Virus record (IMG/VR): IMGVR_UViG_3300020469_003050
Location: 126,001 to 190,000 of that record
Length of the DNA: 64,000 bases
Source of the DNA: a virus
Strand: one strand, 5' to 3'
A program made the position numbers and the translations under genes. The notes under the pieces were generated by a model. It saw only the letters and a program-made list of their open reading frames with translations, ran no database searches and was not told where the DNA came from. The stretch's first letter is position 1; each line of letters begins with the position of its first letter. Positions 4,894 through 24,557 of this stretch are shown here, in pieces.

Positions 4894-5020
4894 AGAACAG
4901 ATAACTTGTATGGGAGAAGATGGAGACCACCCTAAAGTTTATTATACTCTTAAAAAAGGTGAAGCAGTTTGCGGATATTGTAATATCAAATACGTACTAG
5001 TTAAGGAGAAAGAAAAATGA
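4865..5020 (+). CDS. 51-residue CHCC-type zinc-finger protein
   Basis: A small ORF from ATG 4865 to TGA 5018-5020, overlapping both neighbours (ATGA at 5017). Cys15, His22, Cys36 and Cys39, in the context CMGEDGDHPKVYYTL and CGYCNIKYVL, match the zf-CHCC family found in a mitochondrial complex I accessory subunit and in small bacterial proteins. The family binds one zinc ion. Its job in a phage is unknown. Its position between two sugar-nucleotide enzymes suggests it belongs to that operon. Confidence 0.7.
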   Translation: MEQKIVYVTKEQITCMGEDGDHPKVYYTLKKGEAVCGYCNIKYVLVKEKEK

Positions 5021-5910
5021 AAATCGCAATAACAGGTGGGGCAGGATATGTTGGTTGTAGATTAAGTGAACAACTATTAAACAACGGACATGAAGTTATT
5101 TGTATAGATTGGTTAAAGTATGGAGTACAACCCATATTAAACATATTAGATAGAAAAGGATTTCATTTACACAAGATAGATATTTGTAGTCCAGAAGTAG
5201 AACCTATTCTAAAAAGTGCAGATGCAGTAATTCATCTAGCAGGTATTGTAGGCTATCCGTCATGTGAACGTGAGCCTGACTTAGCATATAGAGTTAACGT
5301 AGAAGGAACTAATAGAGTTATAGATGCTTCTGTAGGTAAACCTTTTGTATATGCAAGTACAGGAAGTGTATACGGTGAACTTGGTAAGACATGTGATGAA
5401 ACATGTGAGACTAATCCAATTAGTACATACAGTGTTTATAAACTTGATGGTGAAAAGAAATTAAAAGGAACTGATGCAGTTATACTAAGACCAGCAACTG
5501 CATTTGGTGTGAGTAATAGATTAAGACAAGACTTACTTGTTAATGACTTTACTTACAAAGCAATAGCTGAAAAGAAATTGGTCTTATTTGAAAAGCACTT
5601 CAAACGTACTTTCTTAAGCATTAACGACTTGGCACGTTCATTCAGATGGGCGTTAGAGAAATACGATATTATGAAAGGCGAGATATGGAATGTCGGTGAT
5701 GAAACTTTAAATCATACTAAGTTAGACATTGCACAGATTATTAAAAGCAAAGTCGATTATGAATTAATTATTAACGATGAATTATCTCACGATAAAGATG
5801 GCAGAGACTATTTTGTTGACTATACAAAAATTAGAAACATCGGGTTCACTGCTACCGAAACTCTTGAAGATGGTATTGATAGTTTAGTTAAGTTGTATCA
5901 CGCCGCGTGA
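5017..5910 (+). CDS. NAD-dependent sugar-nucleotide epimerase/dehydratase (extended SDR)
   Basis: 297 residues. GGAGYVG (7-13) is the Rossmann nucleotide-binding motif, with Asp31 after strand 2 favouring NAD. AGIVG follows, then Ser/Thr in ASTGSVYG (113-120) and the catalytic pair Tyr138 and Lys142 (YSVYK). These are hallmarks of GalE/RmlB-type enzymes acting on NDP-sugars. The RBS AAGGAGA is strong. The last codons fold into a terminator hairpin, and the gene runs tail to tail into the DegT aminotransferase on the other strand with a 13-nt overlap. Confidence 0.85.
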   Translation: MKIAITGGAGYVGCRLSEQLLNNGHEVICIDWLKYGVQPILNILDRKGFHLHKIDICSPEVEPILKSADAVIHLAGIVGYPSCEREPDLAYRVNVEGTNRVIDASVGKPFVYASTGSVYGELGKTCDETCETNPISTYSVYKLDGEKKLKGTDAVILRPATAFGVSNRLRQDLLVNDFTYKAIAEKKLVLFEKHFKRTFLSINDLARSFRWALEKYDIMKGEIWNVGDETLNHTKLDIAQIIKSKVDYELIINDELSHDKDGRDYFVDYTKIRNIGFTATETLEDGIDSLVKLYHAA

Positions 5911-5915
5911 TTTTT
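5897..5915 (+). terminator. Hairpin terminator embedded in the stop codon region
   Basis: ATCACG-CCG-CGTGAT followed by TTTTT; the stem contains the TGA stop of the epimerase gene. On the opposite strand the same hairpin has no T-run, so it should end only the plus-strand transcript. Confidence 0.65.
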
Positions 5916-6971
5916 AACAACACTTGCAATCTTTTTTACGTCTTCTTCACGTAAATTAAACTGACCAGGTAAATGCAAACCTCTACTTGCTAGTTCGTCT
6001 GCTATTGGTGTAGGCGTTCTGTACTTTCTATGAAAAGGTTGATTACAAAGACTATCGTATACTGCACGACAACCTATACCTTCTGCACGTAGTTCTTCTA
6101 CGAGATTATCTCTTTTGCTTACTAGTATCTCTGGATACGTAGGTGTCTGATGTTCTAAATCTGTAGGGATAAAGTCTACTACTTTCTTTAAATGTTTACG
6201 ATACCATTTGAATAATTGTTTCTTGTGTTGTACGATGAATGGTAACTTCTTCATTTGTGGCACACCGAATGATGCTTGTAAGTCTGTGAATTTAAAATTC
6301 AATCCCATTACGTTATATACTTCTCCGACTTTAACTGTTCTGCCAAAGTTTTTTATAGCATGAATTTGTTTACTAATATTCTCATCATTAGTAACTATGC
6401 AACCACCTTGTCCTGTAGTAATAATCTTTGGTGCACCGAAACTAAATATTCCCATGTCACCCATAGTACCACAGTGTACATCATTGACTGTTTTACTTCC
6501 TAATGCTTGTGCAGAGTCTTCGATTACAATCTTACCACTCTCTCTTAGAGATTTAATTTTTTCTTCAACGTCTTTAGGATATCTACCATTGATTGCTGAT
6601 ACAAATATAACTCTACAATCTGTTGGTATCTTATCAAAGTTTATACAGTAATTGAATGGGTCAACATCTACTATTACAGGAACACCGCCCATTAATATTG
6701 CACCATTACATGTAGCCGCTTGAGTATATGCACTTACGGCAAACTTCTCTCCTGGCTTGATATTAGCTATCATAGAAGCACACAGGAGACCCGTAGTAGC
6801 ACTTGTTACCATGTGTGCATACTTGGCACCTGTATAGTCACATATAAGAGATTCTAATTCTCTGGTTTTATCGTGTTCCATAATCCACCCACCAGAGTTG
6901 ACGTAGTTATAAACACTCTCAATTTCTTCTTTCCCGTATACGGGATTCATGTGACTATTCTTTGTGAGCAT
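5898..6971 (-). CDS. DegT/DnrJ/EryC1 PLP-dependent sugar aminotransferase
   Basis: 357 residues, normal length for the family, which aminates keto-sugar nucleotides. Visible features are TSATTGL (phosphate-binding region), EDSAQA with Asp152 (pyridine nitrogen partner) and SFGAPKIITTGQGG with Lys182 as the PLP Schiff-base lysine. The start at 6971 overlaps the upstream gene by 17 nt; ATG 6950 (MNPVYGKEE) is an equally plausible start. It is the last gene of the minus-strand glycan operon. The product is probably an amino-deoxysugar nucleotide (inference). Confidence 0.85.
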   Translation of the reverse strand: MLTKNSHMNPVYGKEEIESVYNYVNSGGWIMEHDKTRELESLICDYTGAKYAHMVTSATTGLLCASMIANIKPGEKFAVSAYTQAATCNGAILMGGVPVIVDVDPFNYCINFDKIPTDCRVIFVSAINGRYPKDVEEKIKSLRESGKIVIEDSAQALGSKTVNDVHCGTMGDMGIFSFGAPKIITTGQGGCIVTNDENISKQIHAIKNFGRTVKVGEVYNVMGLNFKFTDLQASFGVPQMKKLPFIVQHKKQLFKWYRKHLKKVVDFIPTDLEHQTPTYPEILVSKRDNLVEELRAEGIGCRAVYDSLCNQPFHRKYRTPTPIADELASRGLHLPGQFNLREEDVKKIASVVKNHAA

Positions 6972-7920
6972 TTACAAAATTCTCCATCTTATGTTTTACG
7001 TGTTCGTAGAAAATCATATTTCCTTCGATACTTGGATGAACCCAATTAAATAAGCCTTTATCTTCTAATTGCTTCCAGACATCATATTGCTCATGTATGT
7101 AATCAATAATGCTTGGCTCAATGTTATTTTTCTTTATCGTTGAACCTTTCCACGACATTATTGGATTCATAATCAAAGACATAAGTTGTCTAGTACTTTC
7201 ACCAGGTCTCCAAGTGTATTTATCTAAATTGTGAGCCTGCATATGTTTTTCTATGTCTGCTTGTTTGATATAAATCTTCAATGTTTGATGTAAGAAGTCT
7301 GCACCTAAATTTGGATTCATACCTTTGATGCCTGCATGTTCACATAGTATATTCTGCCAACTAGGTTCTAATACTGTAAGATTTTCATATGGTTTAACAT
7401 CTTCATATGTTATATCTGTATGAGCGCCTAATATTCCAATCGGTACTTCTAAACTATTCATTGCCTCTAAATCTAAATGTAAAAGTTCGTTTCGTTGTTC
7501 TAACCAATCTGGGTTCTTAAAAAATCTATCAACCCATGATCCTACATTGATGCCCTTAGTTATTATTTCTGATTCTTGATAAGAGGGCCAACACATCTTT
7601 CTTGTTTCTTTTTCGTAATACAATCTTGCTATCGGGTCACACATAACCCAAATCACAGGTTTCTTCTTTACTTGATTAGAAATGTTTCCAGATGATAAAC
7701 ATCGTTGTACACAAGTTAAATTACCTATACCGTGAGTAGGTAACCATGCATGTCTCTTTTTGCCAAACGTATGATTAAATTCTTCTGCAAACATATCTCC
7801 TATGTTTATATCTTTTCCTTCACCGTCATTTCCTAAAGGTGTAGAATAACTTTGTACAGCCCAACTAGGACCTATGTAAATAATGTCGTTGTCGTATAGG
7901 ACATTATCTGATACAAACAT
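6955..7920 (-). CDS. SGNH-hydrolase-like protein of the glycan operon
   Basis: About 321 residues from ATG 7920, which sits just past the stop of the upstream gene; an in-frame start at 7977 would overlap it by 56 nt. The first strand IIYIGPSWAVQSY ends in a Ser where SGNH/GDSL hydrolases keep their nucleophile. Near the C-terminus WVHPSIEGNMIFYEHV resembles the final His block, although Asn replaces the usual Asp. SGNH enzymes remove or add O-acetyl groups on glycans. It is one of three SGNH-like genes in the window. Assignment is by motif only. Confidence 0.45.
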   Translation of the reverse strand: MFVSDNVLYDNDIIYIGPSWAVQSYSTPLGNDGEGKDINIGDMFAEEFNHTFGKKRHAWLPTHGIGNLTCVQRCLSSGNISNQVKKKPVIWVMCDPIARLYYEKETRKMCWPSYQESEIITKGINVGSWVDRFFKNPDWLEQRNELLHLDLEAMNSLEVPIGILGAHTDITYEDVKPYENLTVLEPSWQNILCEHAGIKGMNPNLGADFLHQTLKIYIKQADIEKHMQAHNLDKYTWRPGESTRQLMSLIMNPIMSWKGSTIKKNNIEPSIIDYIHEQYDVWKQLEDKGLFNWVHPSIEGNMIFYEHVKHKMENFVNAHKE

Positions 7921-7921
7921 G

Positions 7922-8827
7922 TCATGCTTCTTGTGTTCCATTATCATAATACCACTTATATGTTTTGGCGAATGCATCTTCCATAGAGTATTTAGGAACC
8001 CACCCTAACTCTTTTAAACGTGAGTTGTCTATCGCTCTGTTTTTAATTCCTTCAGGTCTATCAGTATTGAACCAAAGTTTGCCTTTGTACCCACTGACTT
8101 TAATTAATAGTTCAGCTATTTCTCTAATAGAAATCTCAAAACCACTTGCTACGTTAACTGTATCATACTTGTCGTTGTTTAGAATTATATCCATTGCCTC
8201 AACTGCATCTTCAATATAAAGTATATCTCTGCTTTGATTACCGGAACCCCATATCTCAATACTGTCTGAATTGTTTTTACATGCATCGACAAACTTTTGC
8301 ATTAATGCACCTATGACATGTGCATGTTCTCCTACTCTATCGTGTGGTCCAAACATGTTTGTATTGATTGCAGTACGCCAATGTGTATCATACTTTTCAT
8401 TACTTGCTCTACATTGATACATACCCATTAGCTTAGGCAAAGCAGTTGGGAAGTAAGTAGAGTACGGTTCGCCTTGTAGTAACTGAGTTTCTTTATATGG
8501 TTGTTCGCCAATCTCAGGATAACTACATGTGCTTCCTTGTAGTAATACTCTATCTGTTCTTGCAAAACGACACGCCTCAAATATATTATTTTGAATTGTT
8601 AAGTTCTTAATCATTAACTCAAAACTCTTATCTAAGTCTTCTTGTAAGCCACCTACAGTAGCCGCATTTATAACTACGTGTGTGGGCTTCTTTATATGTA
8701 TGTCTTGTTTAGTTGAGATACGTGACGTATAGTTTGCATTTTGAGTATTGCCTCCTTCTGCATCAGGTATTAGTTTCTTATACCACGTTCCTACTAGTCC
8801 TCTATCTCCTGCTATATAGTATTTCAT
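7922..8827 (-). CDS. GDP-L-fucose synthase-like SDR enzyme, catalytic Tyr absent
   Basis: 301 residues matching GDP-fucose synthase from end to end. It has the GDRGLVG dinucleotide motif (7-13), INAATVGG, LQGSTCSYP, an EQPYKETQLLQGE segment, NMFGPHD, HVIGALMQKF and RDILYIEDAVEAM. The family makes GDP-fucose from GDP-4-keto-6-deoxymannose by epimerisation and NADPH reduction. Lys132 of the YxxxK pair is present, but the position four before it is Thr128; the nearest Tyr is 125. The reaction may therefore be changed or weakened. The start overlaps the upstream stop by ATGA. Confidence 0.8.
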   Translation of the reverse strand: MKYYIAGDRGLVGTWYKKLIPDAEGGNTQNANYTSRISTKQDIHIKKPTHVVINAATVGGLQEDLDKSFELMIKNLTIQNNIFEACRFARTDRVLLQGSTCSYPEIGEQPYKETQLLQGEPYSTYFPTALPKLMGMYQCRASNEKYDTHWRTAINTNMFGPHDRVGEHAHVIGALMQKFVDACKNNSDSIEIWGSGNQSRDILYIEDAVEAMDIILNNDKYDTVNVASGFEISIREIAELLIKVSGYKGKLWFNTDRPEGIKNRAIDNSRLKELGWVPKYSMEDAFAKTYKWYYDNGTQEA

Positions 8828-11439
8828 TCATTCTTTTCCTTATGAATAATAAAGTAATTATTCATTTCTAAAGTTGGACAATGTTTAGTTGACTGAGGCT
8901 TCTGATGTCCTCTATGTTCGCTTTGCCATGTCGCAACGGTGCCTTGTTCATTTCTAAATCCATCAAACGATGAGTAAGCATATGGGAACGGTTGTATGAC
9001 TGCACTGCCGCCAACATTGAGTTGACTCATAATACACTTTGTAAAATAATGTATGTCATTAACATCATACGGTGCAAAGAATGTATTAGTATCTTTATTC
9101 TTGTCTACTACTTGCCATGCCTGTGATATGTTTCCATTTAGTAGTCTTACAATTTTATCTGTTTTCCAGAATACGTTTGACATATTCATAAGTATTATAT
9201 CATATCTTTCCGCAGAATCAAAGTCTTTTCCGTACATATTGTCGCTATTGTCTAACAAATCAAAAGGAGTCTGAGGCTCAATATGTATATCTGCTGGTTC
9301 TGTTATACCTAATGTCTTCCAAATAAGTTTAAGTTCATCAAGCGAATCACCTGCTTCTTTGTATGAGTTAGTAGAATGTACATTTGTAAATCCTTGACTT
9401 TTTAAGAAGTGAGGCATAAATCCAAAGTGTGTTCCTATATCAAGTATCTTAATATCTTTAGGTGCATAGTTTAATCCTAAGTTATCAAGTATCATACTAT
9501 GATTAACCCAATATGCAGACTCTAAAGATGACTCTAGGTATTGTGAATGTCTTTTTAGTTTCTTAGTTAATACTTTGTATTCTTTTTTATAAACGTCTTT
9601 GAATGTATCAAAGTATTGTTCAAACCCTACACCTATCTTTGCGATGTTGTGTGGTTTTCTAAATCTCCAAGAACCATATTCATTATACATTGTCCAATCC
9701 CATTTATAGTTTTCATCTACGAATAAAATTTCTTCTGGAGTTAATTGACGTGGAGTATGTATTTCTTCTTCGTATAATATATCTGCGATGCGCCTTCCTG
9801 AATCTCTGTGACCAAAATCATCGTTCCAATCTTTGCATCTTGCATAATAACCTTCACGATGTATGTCGTCCATATCAATAGTATAACAAACATTTAGGTC
9901 ATACATGTAACCAGTCTGTTCTAACAAGTCATTATTAACATCATCATTGTTTTCTAAGTAACTTGCGTATCTTTTATGAGGGTGTCTTGTAATCGCAATA
10001 GCTGGTATTTTAGATACGTTATCTAAATTATTTTTATCAACTAATCTATATGCAAGTCTAGGTGCAACTTTGTTTTTTATTGCACCGTCTAAATTTCCTG
10101 CTATAGGTATAATTATTGTATTTGTGTTTTCACTATACCATACATATTTTGTCTTTTCTCTTTTAACTTCTTCATCATCTGCTTTGTCTTCTAATTGAGG
10201 TTTGTAGTCTAATAAACTCAAAGACTTGAATGCATCTTTGTATACACTAGGTGTATATACATTTTTATAATGATTGTAGTTGTGTTCTAATATTTCTTGT
10301 AATTCTTTACTGTATGTTATTCCATTCTTTACGTCAACTGTATCTACAATTTCTTTTACAACATCAGTTATAGCATCTATTCTTTCTTCGTAAGCTAATT
10401 CATCATAGCTTTCATCCCAAAATTTATCAAACGTTTTGAACCCTAAGTTTTTTATATTTCTTAAATACTTTCTATCACCTACTATAATGAAAGGTTTCTT
10501 ACATAGTATTGCTTGTGAAAGTTTTTCACTTATCGAAACATACTCATCACTGTGCGTAAACTCTGTAATTAGTTCTACGTATGTTCTCTTTCTATATGGA
10601 AGTAATTCTTCTATTCTGTTTAAAGATGAACTTGCTAACCATTCGTCCCTCTGACAATTCATACTATATGGCAATTCTGTTTTATAATAATCCCATAATA
10701 TTTTATTAGCCATATCTTTATTATATACATCTGGTACTCTGCCGTATATTGCATTTACATCACTATCATATAGAGGATCACCTTCTCCTCTATTATTTGT
10801 ACCAAGAAAACTAAAGTAGAAATTATCTTTTATATTAACTTTCTTTTCTAACAACTTACTTAAAGTGTCAAGTCGATGTGGTCTAATTCTTTTATTAAGA
10901 AATAGAACGTGTTTGTTTGTTAACTCATCTTCTGAAAATTCCCATTTTTCGTGATACTCATTTGATACTTTGTTTTCTTCGTAATCTGAAAATCTTAAAG
11001 TACTAGATGAAACAGTCAAGTAATCTATTGATCCTTTTGGTTTTAGATGTTCATACATAGACCAATACTTTACATTCTTTGCATATGATTTAGTAGAATA
11101 AAACTTATCTATCTTCTCATAGTAACTAAATGGTATAAGTTCTGCACCCATATCGAATACAATACAAGTATTACCTTGCTCTAAATCTTTTGTGATAGAC
11201 TTGTCGTTCAATACTTCATCGATTAGTTTATCAGTAAGAGTTAAGTAATCATACCCATCAAATTCATCTTCATCAAAATACTTACATGCTATCCAAGGAG
11301 AAACAAAATAATATTTTTCAAACCTAACAGTAGGGTGTAACTCATCAACAAAGTTTTGATATAAGTCATAATGCTGAGGTTCGCCATGTATAGTTTTGAT
11401 TAAAGGTGAACGATTTATTATCCATTTATTATAGTACAT
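8824..11439 (-). CDS. Three-module glycosyltransferase / sulfotransferase-like / methyltransferase protein
   Basis: 871 residues. Residues 1-420 resemble phage glycosyltransferase-like proteins, with VLFLNKRIRPHR and SEKLSQAILCKKPFIIVGD followed by LGFKTFDKFWDESYD. Residues about 440-630 resemble a sulfotransferase-type domain (AITRHPHKRYASYL, then VDENYKWDWTMYNEYG). Residues about 650-871 form a SAM methyltransferase Rossmann fold (ILDIGTHFGFMPHFL; YDIILMNMS). It may carry out consecutive steps on one glycan. It overlaps its neighbours by 4 and 1 nt. The module order is seen; the individual activities are inferred. Confidence 0.6.
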   Translation of the reverse strand: MYYNKWIINRSPLIKTIHGEPQHYDLYQNFVDELHPTVRFEKYYFVSPWIACKYFDEDEFDGYDYLTLTDKLIDEVLNDKSITKDLEQGNTCIVFDMGAELIPFSYYEKIDKFYSTKSYAKNVKYWSMYEHLKPKGSIDYLTVSSSTLRFSDYEENKVSNEYHEKWEFSEDELTNKHVLFLNKRIRPHRLDTLSKLLEKKVNIKDNFYFSFLGTNNRGEGDPLYDSDVNAIYGRVPDVYNKDMANKILWDYYKTELPYSMNCQRDEWLASSSLNRIEELLPYRKRTYVELITEFTHSDEYVSISEKLSQAILCKKPFIIVGDRKYLRNIKNLGFKTFDKFWDESYDELAYEERIDAITDVVKEIVDTVDVKNGITYSKELQEILEHNYNHYKNVYTPSVYKDAFKSLSLLDYKPQLEDKADDEEVKREKTKYVWYSENTNTIIIPIAGNLDGAIKNKVAPRLAYRLVDKNNLDNVSKIPAIAITRHPHKRYASYLENNDDVNNDLLEQTGYMYDLNVCYTIDMDDIHREGYYARCKDWNDDFGHRDSGRRIADILYEEEIHTPRQLTPEEILFVDENYKWDWTMYNEYGSWRFRKPHNIAKIGVGFEQYFDTFKDVYKKEYKVLTKKLKRHSQYLESSLESAYWVNHSMILDNLGLNYAPKDIKILDIGTHFGFMPHFLKSQGFTNVHSTNSYKEAGDSLDELKLIWKTLGITEPADIHIEPQTPFDLLDNSDNMYGKDFDSAERYDIILMNMSNVFWKTDKIVRLLNGNISQAWQVVDKNKDTNTFFAPYDVNDIHYFTKCIMSQLNVGGSAVIQPFPYAYSSFDGFRNEQGTVATWQSEHRGHQKPQSTKHCPTLEMNNYFIIHKEKNE

Positions 11440-12686
11440 TAAATCAGACTCCTTTCTGCTTTAATACTATCTTTAGTTTTCTTAAATTCATGATTAGTTT
11501 TCTTTCCACAAAATATTGAACATGTTATTAATCGTTTATCTCTGATATCACGACTTTTAAAATTATCTGGCCATCTGCCTTGAAACATTGGACCGTTTAT
11601 TATATCTTTCAAACTATTATATTCCAAACTTATATTTCTTGTACCATATGAGTTAATGAAATCTTGCAACTGTGAAACTTCATATGAACTAGGATTAGCA
11701 TAGTATTTACTTGCAGTAAAACAACAAGGAAAAACTAAACCATCGTGACCTATAAAAATACCCTTTCTAGGTATAGCAACACAATGAATATCTGTTTGAC
11801 CTAATTCTATTTCATGAGGAGATAATGTTCTTTTGTTATCTATAATTTGTTTATCCATTCTGGGTTTCCAGAATGCTTTTGGATCATTAAATTTTTTAGC
11901 TAACTCATCTGGTTCAATCGATTGTTCTTCTGACTTAGTAAAGCCTGCATCTTTTAAGTATAGTTTAATTTCATTAGTATTTAAACTCTTATCTTGTTGT
12001 TCTATAAAGTAATCTAATTGACCATCATCTTTTAATACTTTCATCCAACTATTATATTTTCTACCATCTTCTGTAATAGGTTGATTAACAAATCCTAATG
12101 CCTCTTTAGCAAAGAACTGTAGCAACCCTATATCTACTGCTAGTTGTTTTGCTTCTTCGACTTGATGTTGGTTGTGCTTAAATACAAGAAACTCCCATTT
12201 GCCTCTGCCACCCGCTTTAACAAACCACTTCATTGCATTCATTATCTTTTTCCAGTGAGTTCCTCTTCTGTAAATATGATTTGTATCTTCAAGACCATCT
12301 ACACTAAAAGTTAAAATACATCCTTCATCACTAAACAACTTTCCTAATTCAGTCCAAAATTCTTCATTTCTACCACTAGCATTAGTATTCATTGTTACGT
12401 ATATTTTAGGATTTATACTTTTTATATATTTTAATATATTAACTAATTCTGGATTAGTCATTGCATCGCCGTAGTTTCCGCATAATTGTAAACCATATAA
12501 CTGAGCGATAAATTCATTTGGCAACCAAGATTTTAATCTATCTAGTGTTAGATATGTTTCTTTATAAGAAGTATTCTTTGGTCCTCCTTGTTGTCTACGA
12601 TTGCATATAGGACATTTGGCATTACAAAGACTGCTCATTTCTAAGTCTAAGTGTAGTATATCTTTGTAAAGATAAAGTAAAGACAT
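11439..12686 (-). CDS. Radical SAM enzyme with SPASM-like C-terminus
   Basis: 415 residues. Cys21, Cys25 and Cys28 (CNAKCPIC) form the CxxxCxxC motif that binds the [4Fe-4S] cluster and cleaves AdoMet. LCGNYGDAM resembles the glycine-rich SAM-binding strand. Further cysteines in the last third (CVAIPRKG, FPCCF, CSIFC) fit an auxiliary-cluster (SPASM) domain, typical of enzymes that modify peptides, proteins or sugars. TAATG overlap upstream and downstream indicates translational coupling. The substrate is unknown. Confidence 0.8.
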   Translation of the reverse strand: MSLLYLYKDILHLDLEMSSLCNAKCPICNRRQQGGPKNTSYKETYLTLDRLKSWLPNEFIAQLYGLQLCGNYGDAMTNPELVNILKYIKSINPKIYVTMNTNASGRNEEFWTELGKLFSDEGCILTFSVDGLEDTNHIYRRGTHWKKIMNAMKWFVKAGGRGKWEFLVFKHNQHQVEEAKQLAVDIGLLQFFAKEALGFVNQPITEDGRKYNSWMKVLKDDGQLDYFIEQQDKSLNTNEIKLYLKDAGFTKSEEQSIEPDELAKKFNDPKAFWKPRMDKQIIDNKRTLSPHEIELGQTDIHCVAIPRKGIFIGHDGLVFPCCFTASKYYANPSSYEVSQLQDFINSYGTRNISLEYNSLKDIINGPMFQGRWPDNFKSRDIRDKRLITCSIFCGKKTNHEFKKTKDSIKAERSLI

Positions 12687-13873: not shown

Positions 13874-13874
13874 G

Positions 13875-15666: not shown

Positions 15667-17087
15667 TTTCTTTCCTTTCTTGTCCACCACTCGTATAGTT
15701 CTGGATCTCGTTTGTAAATATCTTCCAAACGATATTGCTCTTGTCTAATTCTATCAAGTTGTTCCTGATAGTTTCTTCCATTGAAAAACTGTTGCTCATG
15801 TGTCTCAGGCCACTGTTCTTCAAATGTTTGCCTATCTTTCATACCTACTAATGTATTTACTAGAGTTTGTTGCTTAGGAGTTGCCCTTGGCTTAATATAG
15901 GCTAGTAAATCGTCTAAATGCCTATTCAATATATGCTTAGGCCATGCAAAAGGACTAAACACAATATCAGCATGAAAGGCGAACATAATCTTTGTTTCTA
16001 TTCTTACGTCTAATTCTAAACTTAAATCAAATAAATCTTTAATACTAAACATGCCGGGACCTGTAATAGTTAAGTCGAATAGCATCTTATCTTTACCACC
16101 TGGTGCCGCTAGTCCTTTCTTAAAGTTAGCTAACCACTCGTCCCATACAATACCTTTACGAATGAACTCTACGATATCACCTGTACCATCGATACTTGCA
16201 CACATTAACCAGTCTTTGAACTGAGGTAGATAATCAAATAATTCCATACCCTTAAATGTTGTACGAGACAAATTAGAGTTATATCTTAAGTGACAATTCT
16301 TTGCAGAACCATTAGCGACCATTTCTTTTAATGCCCACCAATGTATATCATACATAAGTGGCTCTCCGCCTACCCAATATATTTCTTCTACAATACCATC
16401 ACTAATTGCTTTCTTAAATTCTGGTTCAACAACTGTACGCTGAAACTTTACCATCTTCTGTTTTACAGTTGGTTGCATAAATGGTTGATGTTCAATCGAC
16501 CACATGTTGTGTTTCTTCTTTTCTGCTTCCCACGAACTTGATAATTGTTCACCACACATACGACATTTAAAGTTACATAAGTTAGAGTAACGATAGTCAA
16601 ATGATATAGCAGGCATTGTTGTATGACCGTCATCATCTGTCTTATCGAATGCTTCTTGTATCTTGTCTCTGAATAGTACACCAGTAAACCATTTACGATA
16701 AGATGATAGACTTAGAATATCGTCATTACAAACATCACATTGTGGAATACGTTCTCCAGACATTAGTTTCTTTCTAATATCTTTCATGTATTGAGAGTTC
16801 CAATGTTCATCTAATGATGTAGGATTAAAGTCATCTGCATCTGTTTTAGAATCTTTTACTTCACCATATCTTTCATCATTAGATGCATCGATATATTGTT
16901 TCTGAAACGAATGTTCTTCACGTGATGCACAACATAGTCTACGTTCACCTTGAGGAGATATATAGGTATGAGACCACGGAGCCATACAGAAAGTTTTGTT
17001 TTTACTTTCTTCTGCACAACTTCCGTCGCTTTTCCAGATAGGTATTATCTTCTTATTCAAGTGTATAGACTCCAGTTGATTCGTCAT
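15663..17087 (-). CDS. Twitch-domain radical SAM enzyme
   Basis: 474 residues from ATG 17087 (GTG two codons earlier is possible). FCMAPWSHTYISPQGERRLCC near residue 34 is the cysteine-rich N-terminal block typical of this group. CDVC follows at about 117-120, and the radical SAM motif is at Cys171-175-178 (CNFKCRMC). YWVGGEPLMYD gives the glycine-rich SAM-binding strand. The C-terminal 60 residues are rich in Gln, Arg and Glu. It overlaps the sulfotransferase gene upstream by about 35 nt, an unusually long overlap. Substrate unknown. Confidence 0.82.
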   Translation of the reverse strand: MTNQLESIHLNKKIIPIWKSDGSCAEESKNKTFCMAPWSHTYISPQGERRLCCASREEHSFQKQYIDASNDERYGEVKDSKTDADDFNPTSLDEHWNSQYMKDIRKKLMSGERIPQCDVCNDDILSLSSYRKWFTGVLFRDKIQEAFDKTDDDGHTTMPAISFDYRYSNLCNFKCRMCGEQLSSSWEAEKKKHNMWSIEHQPFMQPTVKQKMVKFQRTVVEPEFKKAISDGIVEEIYWVGGEPLMYDIHWWALKEMVANGSAKNCHLRYNSNLSRTTFKGMELFDYLPQFKDWLMCASIDGTGDIVEFIRKGIVWDEWLANFKKGLAAPGGKDKMLFDLTITGPGMFSIKDLFDLSLELDVRIETKIMFAFHADIVFSPFAWPKHILNRHLDDLLAYIKPRATPKQQTLVNTLVGMKDRQTFEEQWPETHEQQFFNGRNYQEQLDRIRQEQYRLEDIYKRDPELYEWWTRKERK

Positions 17088-17784
17088 ATTCACGATTCCA
17101 TATTCTCGATTCCTTGATAGCTTTTTCTATGTCATCATAGTTTGTAATAATTTTAGTTTTGTCATCTTTAGATAGTTGTTTTGTAAGCCCATGTGGGTCG
17201 TTATCAATATCTATTATGTCACCTAAAGTTTCATAAGGATAAAAATGACATGTATACTTGTCTTTCATTTCTTCAACGACTCTGCTATAAGCCTGATGTG
17301 ATAAGTCAAATGTTTTTATATAATGTTCAATAAGTCCTTTATCTACTTCGAAAGGTTCGTATATTGCTTTCTTACGCTTTCTTACAACCCAATTACCTGA
17401 TTGTTCTGCGATAATAAAACTACAAATTGTATCTATCATATCATGTCTGAAACTAAAATGTAAATCAGTTACACCTGTTATCTTAAAGAAATTATGTACT
17501 TTAGCAAAATCAAATTCATAAAGTGCATACCTAGATTTTTGTTTCATGCCATCACGTAATCCACACATGATGTTCCACTTCATGCACCATTCTATTTCAG
17601 GATATTTTTTGTTTATATCAATCATCAAACCTAGGTACCAGTCATATTCATCATCATGAATTTCTGTTGACTCTAACCCATGCTCATAAAAATTAAATGG
17701 AGGTGTACATAAATTCTCTGCTATATGGTTACCAACAACGGTACTCCCAGTCCTTGCATTGTACATTACTAAGTGTCGTTTCAT
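17053..17784 (-). CDS. Sulfotransferase-like protein
   Basis: 243 residues. RTGSTVVGNH (11-20) matches the 5'-phosphosulfate loop of PAPS-dependent sulfotransferases, and FRHDMIDTICSFIIAEQSG resembles the 3'-phosphate segment with its conserved Arg and Ser. These enzymes transfer sulfate from PAPS to a hydroxyl or amino group of a glycan. Together with the sulfotransferase-like module at 8824-11439 this suggests a sulfated product, a common trait of marine polysaccharides. The start overlaps the upstream stop by 4 nt. Confidence 0.65.
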   Translation of the reverse strand: MKRHLVMYNARTGSTVVGNHIAENLCTPPFNFYEHGLESTEIHDDEYDWYLGLMIDINKKYPEIEWCMKWNIMCGLRDGMKQKSRYALYEFDFAKVHNFFKITGVTDLHFSFRHDMIDTICSFIIAEQSGNWVVRKRKKAIYEPFEVDKGLIEHYIKTFDLSHQAYSRVVEEMKDKYTCHFYPYETLGDIIDIDNDPHGLTKQLSKDDKTKIITNYDDIEKAIKESRIWNREYDESTGVYTLE

Positions 17785-19328
17785 TCAACTTTTACTCCTC
17801 CTAGTGCATCGTTTTCAGTATCCCAACCACCAACTTTTTCGTGAGCATCATCACCGCCTTCATAATCTTTTGTAGTAGCAGGGTCGCCTGCTCTGTCACT
17901 TACTTTGAATATTAATTCTTTATTTAAGATTTGCTCTCTGTTTGGTGCATCTGCCTTTAATGTTTCATACCAATCTGCGATAGGTCCTTTAAATACTTCT
18001 CTGAAATCATGTCCTCTTCGTACATCAAACTGAGAAAAGAATGCTTTAAAATCATTGTATAGTTTCGGAGTTTCTGCTGTATTCTTATGAGGTGTTTTAA
18101 CAATATCAAGATAATCAATTAATCTTTGGATACTTGCTTTCTCGCCTTCTGATAGTTTTTGTTGTGGTCTTTCTGTTCTAAACCATGCTTCTAGTTTATC
18201 TTTGTAAAATGTTTTTACAGTTTCTGGAAGTATTGCCGCACTTTGAAAAGATGGGAAACGCAAAATGTTAAGTGTCATAGTAGGCGCACGTTGTCCGTAT
18301 TCGTCACGCAAGTCTAACATTTCATCCATGAAATCTGTAATTGTAACTAAGCATAATGAGTTGATAGTCATCATCATGTGTAGCTTTTTTACATTTGATT
18401 CTTTTAATACACGATGAATATTTGATTTCCATAAATCGTAATCAAGTCCATCACGAATATATTCTGCTTGAGACTTAGTTGCTTCCATTGATGTATAGAT
18501 TTCAAAATTAGGAACGAACCAAGATTTCTCAATAAGTTTATCTAGTACTTTTGGTTTCTCAGGAGATAGATTAGAATTGATAGCGAAACGCATATTTCGT
18601 CCTCTATCAGGGTTTTGTTCAAACCAATCAAACAATCTCCATGTACCTCTATGCATAATAGGCTCACCACCTGTTATACGAATTTCTTCTAAGCAATCTG
18701 CTAAATCACTTTCCCACCATTTGTGGAATGCTTGAATATATGGATTGTCTTCTTCTTTCTTTGATACTGGTGCCGCCCATGGTGCATTATCAACAAAGTG
18801 ACCACGCCCATCTGATTGTATATTCTGATACGAACCAAACGTATTAATATCTTTAACCCATGCAGTTGAGAATGCAGGATTGCAATATGAACATTTTAGA
18901 TTACATGCTCTATCGAATGATATTTCAAGTGTACGTAAATTTACATTATCGTCCCATGGCATTTCCATGCTCTTATCAATATCCTCATCTTTGAAGATTT
19001 CAGTTTTGAATACACGGTCTGATATGTGGTCTTTGCCCATATCTTCAACTTTCCAACAGTATTCACATTCAGCAGGACGTTTGCCTTCTTGCATATGTTT
19101 ACGCATAAGTTTTTTATGCTTTGTGTTATGAATAGCACTTGGGTTATCTTTAATTTCTTCTAATGGGATCCAGTGACCAGGTGGGTGGTGACAACTAGCA
19201 GTCTGACCATGTCCTAGCCAGATTGTAGCATTGTACCACTTAGCCGCACAATAACTAGCACTCTTGCTATCTATCATACGTTCTTTATATTGATGGAGAG
19301 TTTCACCCTCCCAATGTTTACGACCCAT
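17781..19328 (-). CDS. Twitch-domain radical SAM enzyme
   Basis: 515 residues. The CxxxCxxC motif is Cys142-146-149 (CNLKCSYC, then NPAFSTAW). ITGGEPIMH is the SAM-binding glycine motif, and CEYCW at about 88-92 is the N-terminal paired-cysteine block. The N-terminal HHPPGHWIPLEEIKDNPSAI segment is shared with the next gene (YHPPTHPIPLAELKKDPNAL), so the two are close paralogues from a tandem duplication. They overlap by 11 nt. The substrate is unknown. Confidence 0.83.
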   Translation of the reverse strand: MGRKHWEGETLHQYKERMIDSKSASYCAAKWYNATIWLGHGQTASCHHPPGHWIPLEEIKDNPSAIHNTKHKKLMRKHMQEGKRPAECEYCWKVEDMGKDHISDRVFKTEIFKDEDIDKSMEMPWDDNVNLRTLEISFDRACNLKCSYCNPAFSTAWVKDINTFGSYQNIQSDGRGHFVDNAPWAAPVSKKEEDNPYIQAFHKWWESDLADCLEEIRITGGEPIMHRGTWRLFDWFEQNPDRGRNMRFAINSNLSPEKPKVLDKLIEKSWFVPNFEIYTSMEATKSQAEYIRDGLDYDLWKSNIHRVLKESNVKKLHMMMTINSLCLVTITDFMDEMLDLRDEYGQRAPTMTLNILRFPSFQSAAILPETVKTFYKDKLEAWFRTERPQQKLSEGEKASIQRLIDYLDIVKTPHKNTAETPKLYNDFKAFFSQFDVRRGHDFREVFKGPIADWYETLKADAPNREQILNKELIFKVSDRAGDPATTKDYEGGDDAHEKVGGWDTENDALGGVKVE

Positions 19329-20886
19329 ATTTACTCTCGTATTCTTCCTTAGCTTCGTTCCAGAAAGCAGTCATTTCGGGGAATGTTTCTAAGAAGTTTA
19401 ATCCCCTACGTTCATCATATTGTGAAAAATATTCATGAAAACGAATTAAATGATTACTTAAATCTTCATCACTCATATTTAGCCCTTGTTTGGCCCACGC
19501 CAAATCACGCTCAAGTTTTAATACTTCGTAATTCTTAAATCCTGTATACTTTCTGCCATATAAATCATTCTCTAATACATTGGCTTTCATAAAATCAATG
19601 TTATCTTGTATCATGTCTAGTAATTCTTGGTCAGCTAATTGAATGGTCATCCAGTCAGGATATCTTAGATAAGGAATGTCAAACCAAACTCTTTGTCTTT
19701 TCTTTCTTACAAATGGTGGGTGTTTAAATCCATCATGGTCAGGCGGTTGAATTATTTTATCTTCTTGATTTTCATATCCAAATTCTTCACGTAAGTCTAA
19801 TATCATTTGTAAGAACCCACGTAGATTTGGTATACTCAATAACTGAAACGTATTAATAAAAGAAATTTCTGTACCGTCAGTCTCACTTAACACTCTACGA
19901 CAATTCTCATATAGTGTATCAAAGTTTAAACCGTCACGCATATATTCTGCTTGTTTACCTACACCATCAACACTAACATACAAACTAAAATGCTTACATG
20001 CTGGTGCAACGTACCAATGATTTCCACTATCAGGATTAAATCTTTTTGGATCTTCCCATACACGAATTTCTTCTAGTGCTTTAATCTTATCAATAAACTT
20101 ATCCATTAACTTAGGACTTGGTGGAGACATGTTTGATGTAATACTCAAATCAAGAAAAGGATTTGGATTTTCATTTACGTAATCAAATACTTTAAATGTA
20201 TTGTTATCCATTAATGGTTCACCGCCTGTCATACGAAAAACTTTTAAGTCTCTGTATATCATTGGAAACCATTTCCAGAATGCTTCGATATAAGGATTGT
20301 CTTTACGTGCTACTTCAAGTGGCATAAGACCAGTCTTACGTAAGTAGTCTATATCATTATGACCTGTACCATTACTAAAACGAAATCCACCATGCTTCTT
20401 AACATCATCTTCCCATGCGGTACTTAGATGAGGTGAGCAATAACTACACTTTAGATTACATGCTTGATTGAAGTTTACTTCTACATAACGTGGTGTGATG
20501 TTATGATCCCATGGGTTGTTTACGACTTCGTCCCATGCATCTTTTACCCACCATTCACTTGAACGATAATGTCTATCACTCAGTCTACCACCCTTTGGGG
20601 CATCAGGTGCATCTTCAACATTCCAGCAATATTGACAACCTTCAGGACGGTCGCCGCATTTCATTTGCTTTCTTTCTTCTAACTTGAAGACTGTGTTGTG
20701 TAATGCATTTGGATCCTTTTTAAGTTCAGCTAAAGGAATCGGATGCGTTGGAGGGTGATAGCAACTGTGTGTTCTACCTTGTGGCAAATGCAAACTGACT
20801 TGTAACCACTTAGCCATACACATTGATGGCGAAAGAGAATTTAGTTTGTCTCTTGTTAATTGGGCATCATCGTCATAATTTGCCAT
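19318..20886 (-). CDS. Twitch-domain radical SAM enzyme, paralogue of its neighbour
   Basis: 522 residues. The radical SAM cysteines are Cys143-147-150 (CNLKCSYC, then SPHLSTAW). MTGGEPLMD is the SAM motif and CQYCW (about 84-88) the upstream cysteine pair. It has the same architecture as the 515-residue protein encoded downstream. It differs by a larger insert (about 370-410) with a lysine/arginine-rich RKKRQRVWFD stretch. ATG 20886 lies 6 nt after the stop of the glycosyltransferase-like gene. Confidence 0.83.
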   Translation of the reverse strand: MANYDDDAQLTRDKLNSLSPSMCMAKWLQVSLHLPQGRTHSCYHPPTHPIPLAELKKDPNALHNTVFKLEERKQMKCGDRPEGCQYCWNVEDAPDAPKGGRLSDRHYRSSEWWVKDAWDEVVNNPWDHNITPRYVEVNFNQACNLKCSYCSPHLSTAWEDDVKKHGGFRFSNGTGHNDIDYLRKTGLMPLEVARKDNPYIEAFWKWFPMIYRDLKVFRMTGGEPLMDNNTFKVFDYVNENPNPFLDLSITSNMSPPSPKLMDKFIDKIKALEEIRVWEDPKRFNPDSGNHWYVAPACKHFSLYVSVDGVGKQAEYMRDGLNFDTLYENCRRVLSETDGTEISFINTFQLLSIPNLRGFLQMILDLREEFGYENQEDKIIQPPDHDGFKHPPFVRKKRQRVWFDIPYLRYPDWMTIQLADQELLDMIQDNIDFMKANVLENDLYGRKYTGFKNYEVLKLERDLAWAKQGLNMSDEDLSNHLIRFHEYFSQYDERRGLNFLETFPEMTAFWNEAKEEYESKYGS

Positions 20887-20892
20887 TAGAAT

Positions 20893-21873
20893 CTATTTGT
20901 CCCAACCGGTTTGCTTCTCTGTTGCTAATGGGTTGTTAACTCTTGGTGGGTTAGTGTAAACACGTTTAAAAAAAGATGCTACTTCTGGTGTTGGGTCACA
21001 TAATTCCATATCCATTTTATCTACTAAGATATCACCGATTTCTAAACATGCATCAAATAGTTTTTCATAATTCCATTCTACTTTTGTCTTTTCGCACTTC
21101 TGGTCTCCGCCTTGAAATTTAGGAAGCACTGTGTTATCAAAGTATTCTTTAAACCAGTCAAAGCTAGAAATGTTTGCTAGAATAAAATCAGGGTTAAGAT
21201 TTGTATCGTAACAACCTAATCTTGCACCGTAACATGCCCATATACCATTCTCTACATTTGCACCAATGTTCATCCATGTAATTAGACGTTCATAGTTCTT
21301 AGGCCATATACGTTTTTTAAATTCGTCTACTGGTACTTTCTTGCCTTCATCAAGTGACATTTTAGAACCTTCACGATAACCTGCACGAAAGGCTTGAAAC
21401 GGTGAGCCTGCATTATGTACTGTTGAATAAATGTTATTCATCTGAATATAATTTAAGTCCCAACAAAAATCTACTTTCTTTGTTTCGTCTACTGCGTTTT
21501 CATGTGTCTTCATATCTAATACAAGTTTCACTGGCCAGCATTTAATACCACCATTACCATATACTAGACCGTTTACTACATTCTTTGCAGACCAACTAAT
21601 AACTGAATTTTCTAAATCAGTACCAGCTGGAAATGTTAGTTCGATATCGAAAAACTTCTCATCTACGATATTATCACCATCAATAGTAACAAATCTTTCT
21701 GTATCACTTTGTCTTGCACATTCTTTGTGTGCGTTGTCAAATCCTTTGACACCATCTACTCTTTTTGCAAATGGAAATTTACTTATAATATCTGCCCAAT
21801 GTTCTTCTTTATTAGGCTCATCGTAACTTAGATAAAAAACATCTAATTCACCGATTTCTAGTTTGCTCATCAT
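20893..21873 (-). CDS. GT-A-like glycosyltransferase
   Basis: 326 residues. The N-terminal 90 residues look like a GT-A nucleotide-sugar fold: a first strand LDVFYLSYDEP, a basic KRVDGVKG loop and a DxD-type metal motif in FVTIDGDNIVDEKFF. GNGGIKCWP follows the acceptor-side pattern of family 2-like enzymes. The C-terminal half is not recognised. RBS AGGAGA precedes the ATGATG start, which overlaps the upstream TGA. It probably adds one residue to the glycan made by this operon. Confidence 0.55.
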   Translation of the reverse strand: MMSKLEIGELDVFYLSYDEPNKEEHWADIISKFPFAKRVDGVKGFDNAHKECARQSDTERFVTIDGDNIVDEKFFDIELTFPAGTDLENSVISWSAKNVVNGLVYGNGGIKCWPVKLVLDMKTHENAVDETKKVDFCWDLNYIQMNNIYSTVHNAGSPFQAFRAGYREGSKMSLDEGKKVPVDEFKKRIWPKNYERLITWMNIGANVENGIWACYGARLGCYDTNLNPDFILANISSFDWFKEYFDNTVLPKFQGGDQKCEKTKVEWNYEKLFDACLEIGDILVDKMDMELCDPTPEVASFFKRVYTNPPRVNNPLATEKQTGWDK

Positions 21874-22454
21874 GTTCTCCTGAATGAATATGTTTCCAGA
21901 AACTTCTGGGTATATAAACTTATACTGTATTTATTATATTCGAATTTAACTCTAGTTTCAGAACTCAATAACTTTGCGAACGGAATAGAGACTGTTTGTA
22001 TAATAAAATCTGGTCTGTTTTCATATGTTATGAAAAATGGGTGATGAGTTTTACCTGCAACTGTAACATTTTGATGTTCATCTACGTTTGCATTCTTTAT
22101 TACTTCTTTACTAGGAGAAAAGCAAAGTTCTGAACCATCCCATGTTACTGATATGTCACAATACTTTGTATCTGGCAAATTGTATAACTGAGTATCTTTG
22201 CTTCTTTGTTTTATATCTACCTTAGACTTAATAATCTCGTAAACAAATATATCATCTGTGCTTACAACTTTATAGTCTGAGAACTTAAAATCTCCAGTAA
22301 GAAAAGGTAATATAGCTTCCATAGAAAACCATGCACTCTTAAGTAATGGGTTATCTTCTGTTTGATTAGATGAAATACTAAGTATATCACCTGCATCATT
22401 GAAGTATACTACTCTTGCCTTTTCAGTTTCATGTGTGAACCCGGTGCTTCTCAT
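21870..22454 (-). CDS. Hypothetical protein, beta-rich
   Basis: 194 residues with no recognised domain. The pattern of short hydrophobic strands (KARVVYFNDAGDILSISS, KYCDISVTWDGSELCFSP, VKFEYNKYSISLYTQ) suggests an all-beta structure, perhaps a small virion or fibre-associated protein rather than an enzyme. Its start overlaps the upstream glycosyltransferase stop, and its stop overlaps the next gene, so it is embedded in the operon. Confidence 0.55.
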   Translation of the reverse strand: MRSTGFTHETEKARVVYFNDAGDILSISSNQTEDNPLLKSAWFSMEAILPFLTGDFKFSDYKVVSTDDIFVYEIIKSKVDIKQRSKDTQLYNLPDTKYCDISVTWDGSELCFSPSKEVIKNANVDEHQNVTVAGKTHHPFFITYENRPDFIIQTVSIPFAKLLSSETRVKFEYNKYSISLYTQKFLETYSFRRT

Positions 22455-23308
22455 ATATTCAGTGCCTTTTCATACATATTAATTTTTTCTTCTGTTAGCC
22501 ATTTCTTTTCAACGTAATGAAAAGGAAGTGACTGTTCGTAATTAGCTACACGAATTTTTAAGTCATGTGTCAACGTACTTGGTATACTATCTGTCCAAAT
22601 ACCTGATATCTTATTGTTAGGAATATTTTGAATATAACTTTTCATATGTACGAATGTAGGTACATCTTTAATATCATTATCAATAACTTCCTCTTCTAAA
22701 TCTAATAAACGTATAGCCAATGCATATGCCAAGTCTGCACTCATCCAGTCTTGACCTGTTCCTTTAAGAAATTTATCATAGTACACATTCCAATGAACCA
22801 TAATCAATTCAATCATTTTAAACAATTCGAATGCAGTATCAGATTCTTTAAAATACGTGAAGTTACTATATATGTTTGGTAAGTCTAATTGTGTAAATTT
22901 CTTACGATAATAATCGTCTGTTATTTGTTCATTTCTAAATGTCTTAACATGTGTACATGCCCAAACATCTTTCTTAGATAAATGTTCCCACCAATGGTCA
23001 ACAGGGTGTGTGAACAAAACATCTGTATCAAGAATGATAGTTTCTTTGAATGGTGTCATGTGTGGATACTTCCACTTGTTATGAATTTTCCATTTGTCTG
23101 CACCAGCATCATCATTCCATGGGATATCAACTATATGGTCAAACACTTCTTTGTGCTTACCAGTAAGTTGTGTTTTAGTATACTCATCAACGCATACACA
23201 AATTGCATTTTCTTTTTGTGTTGCTTTGAGTGATAAGGCTAAACCATATGCTTGAGTAAGATAATCATATGTACTATTCTGTGCTATGCAAATATATCCT
23301 CTACTCAT
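22451..23308 (-). CDS. Glycosyltransferase-like protein (GT8-like fold)
   Basis: 285 residues. The N-terminus GYICIAQNSTYDYLTQAYGLALSL is typical of nucleotide-sugar transferases that begin with a Rossmann strand and the 'activity/attention' segment. TIILDTDVLFTHP holds the DxD metal motif (about residue 95). The enzyme is similar in layout to the next gene upstream, so the two look like diverged duplicates. It is probably an alpha-retaining GT-A enzyme of the family 8 type; the donor sugar is unknown. Confidence 0.6.
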   Translation of the reverse strand: MSRGYICIAQNSTYDYLTQAYGLALSLKATQKENAICVCVDEYTKTQLTGKHKEVFDHIVDIPWNDDAGADKWKIHNKWKYPHMTPFKETIILDTDVLFTHPVDHWWEHLSKKDVWACTHVKTFRNEQITDDYYRKKFTQLDLPNIYSNFTYFKESDTAFELFKMIELIMVHWNVYYDKFLKGTGQDWMSADLAYALAIRLLDLEEEVIDNDIKDVPTFVHMKSYIQNIPNNKISGIWTDSIPSTLTHDLKIRVANYEQSLPFHYVEKKWLTEEKINMYEKALNI

Positions 23309-24174
23309 AGAGTATCTCCTTGAGCCAATAGTTTATCTATATTACGTTCTATTGCAGACTTATTCATAATGTGTATATCTGTGTTAGTGAATCTAGCTAA
23401 TACATGTTCAGTTGTTTTCTCAGGCTTAGCACAATACATTATAATATCGTTGCTACTATTTACTCTAAAAATATCATCTAAATCGAAACTATTGTTTAGA
23501 TAGTCCATAGGTAGCGATGGTACGTTAGATGCTACTTGTCCATTTAAGATATGAACAGCCATTGAAAATGCAAAATCATTTCTGAATAATGTACCCGAAC
23601 AATTATACAAGTAGTAATAATACTTATAGTTTTCTTTTATGTGACTAACTAAAGTAAATAAGTTTTCAGTGTATTCAGATTTTCTAAAATAGAACACTGT
23701 TGCCCAATACATTGGTATGGAGAAATCATCAATATAGGATATGTTACCGCCATGTCTACCAGCAACATCCCTATATTGACAATTAATCATGAAGTCGTTT
23801 TCACTACCCCATACTTGGTCAAGTGTGTTACTCATTACAAAGTAATCACAATCGATAACCAAACTTTCTTCGTAAGGTGAGAGGTCATATATGTCGCTAC
23901 GTGACATATTGACAAAAGGTGCATACTGCGATTGGTTTGCAGTATCCTTAAATAGTCTTATATTACTATCTTGTTTTGATGCGGAAATAATAGTTCTATC
24001 GAAATACTTGTTTACTAATTCTTCATTATCTAATAATGACTCGTTGTTTGTAACTAAAGCAATTTCATCAAAACCTGATAAGTTCTTTCTAACATAACCT
24101 GCACATGTACATGCAATTTTTATGTAATCTAGTAACCCATTATTTGTCGCAAAGATTATAATTCCTTTGCTCAT
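23305..24174 (-). CDS. Glycosyltransferase-like protein, paralogue
   Basis: 289 residues with the same plan as the neighbouring 285-residue gene: an N-terminal strand (KGIIIFATNNGLLDYIKIACTCAGYV), LVTNNESLL, and a DxD-type motif in SLVIDCDYFVM (about residue 105). The C-terminal part is Tyr/Asn-rich (YKYYYYLYN). Start and stop overlap the neighbours by 4 and 1 nt. Function is by motif and context. Confidence 0.55.
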   Translation of the reverse strand: MSKGIIIFATNNGLLDYIKIACTCAGYVRKNLSGFDEIALVTNNESLLDNEELVNKYFDRTIISASKQDSNIRLFKDTANQSQYAPFVNMSRSDIYDLSPYEESLVIDCDYFVMSNTLDQVWGSENDFMINCQYRDVAGRHGGNISYIDDFSIPMYWATVFYFRKSEYTENLFTLVSHIKENYKYYYYLYNCSGTLFRNDFAFSMAVHILNGQVASNVPSLPMDYLNNSFDLDDIFRVNSSNDIIMYCAKPEKTTEHVLARFTNTDIHIMNKSAIERNIDKLLAQGDTL

Positions 24175-24557
24175 TAGATTTCCAAGACCTTCTCAATCTT
24201 ACGTGAACTACGTAACTTTTGATAGTCATTATAGTATTCATTGATAACTTCAAAATACAAACTAGAAATATCTTCTAGGAACTTAGTAGTATCTTCAATT
24301 TTAACTGGAATATCATTCTTATCAAGCAAGATTACTTCTGTCTTGCCTGCACTAACAATAGTACTCATAAATCCAATTAACTCTTGCGATACTTTAAATG
24401 TACCACCATAACTACTGTAACTCAGTAAATTCTGTGTTTTAACTTTTAGGTTGTTTTTATTAAGGTTGAAAGTCTGCATAGTGTTCGAAAACTCTAATGC
24501 TCTTTCTAGCCGTTCAAGTTCGGTACTTGAAGGCGTAATATTCTCTTTTTTTGACAT
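24174..24557 (-). CDS. Hypothetical protein, first gene of the glycan operon
   Basis: 127 residues from ATG 24557, chosen because AAGGAG lies at the right distance and a consensus promoter stands just upstream. A longer frame to 24590 would read through the promoter -10. The protein is helical and charged (TELERLERALEFSNTMQTFN, then a C-terminal KKIEKV-like tail) with no recognised domain. As the first gene behind its own promoter it may set operon expression or chaperone fibre modification; both are guesses. Confidence 0.6.
   Translation of the reverse strand: MSKKENITPSSTELERLERALEFSNTMQTFNLNKNNLKVKTQNLLSYSSYGGTFKVSQELIGFMSTIVSAGKTEVILLDKNDIPVKIEDTTKFLEDISSLYFEVINEYYNDYQKLRSSRKIEKVLEI

Follow-up and report, generated by a model that had tools for sequence, protein, structure and literature searches.

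A radical SAM-rich enzyme operon behind the fibre genes of a large ocean phage: a candidate tail-fibre decoration module

Why would a phage carry five radical SAM (rSAM) enzymes, in the company of glycosyltransferase- and sulfotransferase-like proteins, directly behind its putative tail-fibre genes? The question is raised by the window analysed in this study, i.e. the whole stretch of 64,000 nucleotides corresponding to positions 126001-190000 of a 342,607-base virus record. The nearest isolates of this 342-kb ocean phage are PA5oct/GAP32/SCTP-2-like; its tail sheath shares 40% identity with that of PA5oct, and its baseplate wedge and a 2952-aa protein show 25-33% identity to those of SCTP-2, PA5oct and Munch-like giants. 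An earlier note had described an operon of overlapping genes under one promoter at 5898-24557 and proposed that it serves glycan modification of the fibres or of the host surface. The operon was confirmed: 17 minus-strand ORFs run from 24557 to 5898, starting with the ATG of U138 at 24557, and their junctions range from 56-nt overlaps to gaps of 6 nt at most. The region upstream of it comprises:

36153..40550, minus strand: baseplate wedge protein, 1465 aa (phrog_10646, E 1.4e-229)
27302..36160, minus strand: virion structural protein, 2952 aa, counterpart of PA5oct gp355 (phrog_10938, tblastn, synteny)
27274..27281, minus strand: late-type promoter motif GATAAATA, 33 nt upstream of the f223 start
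26577..27248, minus strand: f223 (35% identity to PA5oct gp357)
25602..26513, minus strand: fib303, putative tail-fibre protein (by position only; conserved in the block described below)
24614..25567, minus strand: fib317, putative tail-fibre protein (by position only; conserved in the same block)

The same stretch of PA5oct holds the baseplate wedge, the giant virion protein (gp355, detected in virions by mass spectrometry, MS), the f223 counterpart (gp357, also MS-detected), a long tail fibre and further MS-found virion proteins, and has no enzyme operon at the equivalent position. Since the PA5oct stretch ends after the virion and fibre proteins, the operon is regarded as having been added after the fibre genes. 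fib317 did not match the fibre of PA5oct, and fib303 matched no family profile. The operon itself consists of:

24174..24557, minus strand: U138, conserved first gene (kept in the block)
23305..24174, minus strand: GTc, glycosyltransferase-like, weak assignment (invariant DxD and position only)
22451..23308, minus strand: GTb, GT8/glycogenin-like glycosyltransferase (weak glycogenin match)
21870..22454, minus strand: U194, fast-evolving, conserved (kept in the block)
20893..21873, minus strand: GTa, GT-A-fold glycosyltransferase-like protein (predicted model against GT-A folds)
19318..20886, minus strand: rS1, N-terminal-twitch rSAM (NF033640 above cut-off)
17781..19328, minus strand: rS2, N-terminal-twitch rSAM (NF033640 above cut-off)
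17053..17784, minus strand: ST, Stf0-like sulfotransferase candidate, variable cassette (motifs and Foldseek)
15663..17093, minus strand: rS3, N-terminal-twitch rSAM (NF033640 above cut-off)
14677..15690, minus strand: U337, variable cassette (gene clustering behind rS1)
13875..14687, minus strand: SGNH-like protein 2 (motif level only)
12686..13873, minus strand: rS4, N-terminal-twitch rSAM (NF033640 above cut-off)
11439..12686, minus strand: rS5, rSAM with C-terminal SPASM (profile matches)
8824..11439, minus strand: three-part 871-aa protein with glycosyltransferase-like N-terminus, sulfotransferase-like middle and methyltransferase-like C-terminus (motifs)
7922..8827, minus strand: GDP-fucose-synthase-like SDR (profile matches)
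6955..7977, minus strand: SGNH-like protein 1 (motif level only)
5898..6971, minus strand: DegT aminotransferase (PF01041, E 3e-65)

The enzyme content claimed earlier was recovered with unequal certainty. The DegT aminotransferase is clear, and the ORF at 7922..8827, judging by its profile matches, clearly belongs to the SDR family and is of the fucose-synthase type, although its 223 bits against NF047922 (GDP-L-fucose synthase) stay under the 500-bit equivalog cut-off. For the three or more glycosyltransferase-like proteins, the case is weak but consistent for GTb (glycogenin, GT8, E 0.0018; no Pfam match) and GTa (best E 1.4e-3, weak, for its predicted model), GTc being a candidate on its DxD and position. 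Of the two sulfotransferase-like domains, ST resembles Stf0 (Foldseek 1tex, prob 0.97, E 4.8e-3, a weak match; no Pfam match) and its relatives share invariant PAPS-type motifs, RxGST and RxDxxDTxxS; the second, in the middle of the 871-aa protein, is recognised by motif. To judge from its relative at locus L049, which has the first and last parts and lacks the sulfotransferase-like middle, the 871-aa protein is modular. The methyltransferase-like C-terminus of that protein and the two SGNH-like proteins (GxS and HP motifs, judged by eye) stand at the motif level, with no Pfam or NCBIfam match. A sulfated, methylated, amino-sugar-bearing product is best read as a plausible list of candidate tailoring steps.

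Facing the operon on the other strand lies a further group of genes with sugar-nucleotide and methyl functions, which the earlier note had overlooked:

340..5910, plus strand: convergent glycan/methyl set (AdoMet decarboxylase, cytidylyltransferase-cupin, FG-GAP protein, FdtA-like cupin, C-methyltransferase, epimerase)

At loci L080-L089, relatives of the cupin gene sit within the rSAM operon itself.

Operons that combine many rSAM proteins with tailoring enzymes are reminiscent of natural-product clusters, and the present one could accordingly make a free small molecule or a RiPP. This seems very unlikely, as no gap in the operon exceeds the 6 nt given above, no membrane transporter was found in it and it is linked to fibres; a RiPP was rejected, there being no room for a precursor peptide.

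The presence of five rSAM proteins, four of them twitch-type, was borne out. All five carry CX3CX2C, and rS1-rS4 match NF033640 (N_Twi_rSAM) over their full length with 298-365 bits (curated cut-off, 170 bits), whereas rS5 fails this profile (47.8 bits) and has a C-terminal SPASM instead. Four invariant N-terminal Cys, CNxKCxYC and TGGEP are kept in the relatives of rS1. The whole record contains 17 PF04055 matches and 11 NF033640 matches above cut-off, an rSAM count that exceeds chance, and up to 21 N_Twi matches were found in the records of relatives. The density that had been called remarkable is thus real, but similar richness is already in print, namely rSAM-rich T4-like ocean viruses in the available text of PMC5332604 and rSAM cassettes in a fibre/glycosyltransferase island in that of PMC7029224. 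The record holds a second rSAM cluster, overlooked earlier, between 93.5 and 115 kb. Among isolate phages, the best N_Twi matches (22-25% identity) are in Vibrio phages.

The substrate of these enzymes need not be a glycan: they might modify virion proteins directly by peptide chemistry, the same proteins being glycosylated separately. SPASM/twitch enzymes frequently act on peptides, and the operon rSAMs show weak NCBIfam similarities to peptide-modifying rSAMs. Moreover, the bacterial relatives point in no way towards glycans: bacterial N_Twi_rSAM genes often stand alone or adjoin further rSAM genes, and the 25 Pfam families most frequent in their neighbourhood include none of glycosyltransferases, which leaves the idea that these neighbourhoods are polysaccharide loci unsupported. 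No functional characterisation of the NF033640 family was found in the literature. Against direct protein modification, rS2 and rS4 are common to fibre alleles only 25-35% identical to each other, and because they span such divergent fibres a common small substrate suits better than a protein-specific one; we consider direct modification rather improbable.

The co-occurrence of the enzyme island with fibre genes across phages was followed in two separate searches. The search of IMG/VR with rS1 gave 74 loci, 58 of them with enough upstream sequence; U138-GTc-GTb-GTa precedes rS1 in 55 of the 58, together with a fibre-region gene in 54. A search with GTa only (no rSAM in the query) gave at least 589 loci, and among the best 77 with enough upstream sequence the full fibre-U138-GTc-GTb-GTa block was present in 70. 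The gene order is fibre-fibre-U138-GTc-GTb-U194-GTa. Hundreds of uncultured phages of aquatic origin share this block, and it is also present on contigs that were binned under Pelagibacter, Verrucomicrobia and other groups and look like phage DNA; the isolate phage collection, searched with GTa, GTb and rS1, gave no relatives of any of the three. The possibility, raised by the earlier note, that homologues occur solely in unrelated metabolic contexts does not hold for the fibre-adjacent block and holds in part for the bacterial rSAM family.

The block is more constant than what follows it. rSAM genes come after it in 51 of 64 GTa-found loci (from the best of at least 589), and of the 58 GTa-found contigs that extend 6 kb or more beyond GTa, 8 lack rSAM genes in that part, so fibre and glycosyltransferase genes can stand alone. 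They are therefore regarded as the core, and the rSAM, sulfo- and SGNH cassettes as variable add-ons. The genes behind rS1 vary: those without an rSAM motif were clustered into 61 families, many of single occurrence. No sugar-nucleotide genes were recognised adjoining the minimal (rSAM-free) blocks.

Phage DNA hypermodification (a modified base carrying a sugar) was also considered, this being a T4-like phage with several glycosyltransferases, and rSAM steps being part of some such pathways. However, the block adjoins fibres rather than replication genes, and the one thymidylate synthase of the record, which carries the canonical PFN motif, is the only match to its family there. With no supporting gene, this reading was rejected as extremely unlikely.

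Phylogenies of the block genes tie the glycosyltransferases to the fibres. fib317, f223, U138, GTb, GTc and GTa all show one and the same division into two allele classes (branch support, 100%), while this fibre/glycosyltransferase split is rejected by rS2 (AU p 0.0016) and rS4 (p 0.015) and not by rS1 (p 0.495) and rS3 (p 0.18). Two loci (L053, L059) have class II fibres and glycosyltransferases beside an rS1 about 80% identical to that of the window, and in L078 rS2-rS4 are 75-80% identical to those of the window, with a tail sheath of merely 41-51% identity. It follows that the glycosyltransferases travel with the fibres and that at least some rSAM genes cross lineages. As proof of function this co-segregation is weak, because adjacent genes are linked and the two classes diverge in the backbone too (tail sheath, 41-51%).

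Two overlapping elements lie at the fibre-operon junction:

24582..24610, minus strand: operon promoter of sigma70 type, TTGACA-N17-TATTAT (conservation in relatives)
24565..24594, minus strand: predicted 11-bp hairpin, its 5' arm overlapping the -10 element and its 3' arm covering the U138 Shine-Dalgarno sequence

By score alone the promoter, also part of the earlier description, had to be rejected (90 promoter-like matches in the region vs 97 expected); it is accepted as real because of its conservation, TTGACA-N17-TATTAT being found at the operon start in 41 of 44 distinct relatives vs 2.8% of random windows, and in 43 of 73 vs 3.8% of controls in a wider set. Baseplate, sheath and tube genes have the late-type motif GATAAATA 28-68 nt upstream; overall the motif is no more frequent than expected by chance, and only its positions are informative. 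ATAAATA stands before the first fibre gene in 36 of 67 relatives vs 1.5% of control windows. The T4-type TATAAATA was discarded as the late motif, being under-represented in the window (1 occurrence against 11.8 expected), and GATAAATA fits instead.

The hairpin (z -2.65) encloses the operon promoter in its inverted repeat. Across 83 distinct relatives the U138 Shine-Dalgarno sequence is less exposed than when the sequence upstream of it is shuffled (p 3.8e-6), and the same comparison showed no such hiding for the fibre genes (p > 0.6); the hairpin over the Shine-Dalgarno sequence is specific to this junction. Only these comparisons were relied on, since the pairing gain between promoter-started and read-through RNA is partly a truncation effect. 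In late RNA reading through from the fibre genes, the hairpin would hide the Shine-Dalgarno sequence and leave U138 untranslated, whereas RNA begun at the operon promoter would lack the 5' arm and allow its translation. T4 has a comparable hairpin control, with early and late exchanged relative to the arrangement predicted here.

The reading we favour, at about even confidence, is that of a tail-fibre decoration module, in which the phage glycosylates its own fibres in the cytosol and elaborates the glycan with rSAM and other tailoring enzymes. The enzymes would be made early, from the operon's own promoter; the glycosyltransferases would link a short glycan to new fibre (or neighbouring virion) proteins in the cytosol and lengthen it; the rSAM enzymes, aided by the phage A-type Fe-S carrier (PF01521, one in the record), and likewise the sulfo-, methyl-, amino- and SGNH-type enzymes, would tailor the glycan or the sugar donors, and the fibre surface would thereby vary from phage to phage. 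Fibre-coupled glycan chemistry is supported because (i) fibre adjacency is conserved in both searches, (ii) fibre and glycosyltransferase alleles segregate identically and (iii) the proteins look cytosolic (none of the 17 has a membrane segment) and no Wzx-type flippase (PF01943) was matched in the record.

The main rival is rewriting of the host surface, early enzymes altering LPS or capsule and so excluding rival phages or preventing re-adsorption of progeny to debris. It is what the available text of PMC7029224 proposes for the analogous pelagimyophage island, whose glycosyltransferases are read as host-surface modifiers. The early-type promoter suits such host-directed functions equally well, and sugar-nucleotide genes lie on both strands. 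It is made less likely by the missing flippase match, by the absence of a membrane-bound transferase from the operon, by the binding of the glycosyltransferase core to fibres through gene block and alleles, and by the minimal blocks lacking recognised sugar-nucleotide genes alongside. The conserved coupling to fibres thus supports in part the glycan modification proposed earlier, of which either the fibres or the host surface may be the target. More tentatively, and at less than even confidence, fibre decoration may be peculiar to uncultured phages of aquatic habitats, with several N-terminal-twitch rSAM enzymes, as exchangeable cassettes, chemically diversifying the fibre glycan; virions would then carry a post-translational modification of a new class.

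So far, the glycosyltransferases of marine phages have mostly been taken to modify the host surface or DNA, and a block tying them to fibre genes allows the idea of glycosylated and chemically diversified fibres to be tested. It also gives a large unexplored set of rSAM enzymes a defined partner context, and would bear on phage escape from receptor change and on host competition in the ocean.

Mycobacteriophage glycosyltransferases are known to modify the phage's own virion proteins, as is proposed here; the likeness lies in the described function, other phages and enzymes being involved there, without rSAM. For one of them, Maravista, virion glycosylation is suggested in the available text of PMC11256854. 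NF033640 is represented by four full-length operon members above cut-off and 11 in the record, its bacterial members sitting in other contexts. The T4-like ocean virus TARA_ERS488813_N000010 resembles our phage in combining many rSAM genes (12) with an A-type Fe-S carrier, and differs in that the available text of PMC5332604 describes it for Fe-S metabolism, without a fibre-glycosyltransferase linkage. For the fixed block, its own promoter and hairpin, and the rSAM-free form, no prior description was found in a literature whose coverage is incomplete. The closest system is the host recognition cluster (HRC) of pelagimyophages and cyanomyophages, as given in the available text of PMC7029224: a variable island of fibres and glycosyltransferases in the structural region, between VrlC and gp14, with GT8 as the most represented glycosyltransferase family and rSAM cassettes in some genomes. 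Here, too, tail fibres (assigned by position) and glycosyltransferases share a variable island, which follows a large structural protein of the baseplate region. Unlike the HRC of that description, the block belongs to a 342-kb PA5oct/GAP32/SCTP-2-like phage and is distinguished by its fixed gene order, own promoter, Shine-Dalgarno hairpin and rSAM count.

Radical SAM genes of the record are not confined to the operon, as a second cluster with six or seven of them was found elsewhere in the same record. This cluster and two further features are:

record 93549-115180 (L024:7549 to L025:9180), second radical SAM cluster
window 340-5910, + strand, sugar/methyl gene set convergent with the operon
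G000:33777-34079, phage-encoded A-type Fe-S carrier (PF01521)

The second cluster also encodes a GTa-like protein of 925 aa, a carbamoyltransferase (PF02543/PF16861), an Asp/Asn hydroxylase (PF05118), an SGNH-like DUF6071 protein and an RpiB-like protein, and thymidylate synthase/DHFR genes are convergent with it. One gene of the sugar/methyl set encodes an AdoMet decarboxylase, and another an FG-GAP repeat protein that looks secreted. The Fe-S carrier, found in record G000, could aid the maturation of the radical SAM enzymes.

Upstream of U138, the promoter is located inside a hairpin predicted to hide the Shine-Dalgarno sequence, and this nested arrangement (window 24565-24610) is kept in relatives, with differing sequences. 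Seven related loci (L211, L220, L229, L235, L246, L247 and L250) have no (or no visible) radical SAM gene after GTa; in their fibre-U138 interval the sigma70 match is mostly absent, and a AGATAATTAC-like motif is shared within the inverted repeat. The octamer TATAAATA, of the T4-type late-promoter motif, is strongly under-represented in the whole window (1 found vs 11.8 expected).

Fusions and split forms of radical SAM proteins were observed in related locus L078 and in records G001-G003 and G010, among them a double frame of 1037 aa and frames of 583-606 aa matching the N-terminal-twitch profile (NF033640) in two pieces.

The phage fibre-glycosyltransferase-radical SAM block is present on six contigs (L121, L124, L125, L126, L154 and L155) with the MAG labels Pelagibacter, Verrucomicrobia, Betaproteobacteria and Rickettsiales, which are probably phage DNA misbinned into bacterial MAGs. 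Many consecutive radical SAM genes, including one for a 1106-aa protein with a double N-terminal-twitch radical SAM (N_Twi) match, also occur on bacterial contigs L119 and L134 (bacterium FK5.bin95 and Elusimicrobia bin-0981).
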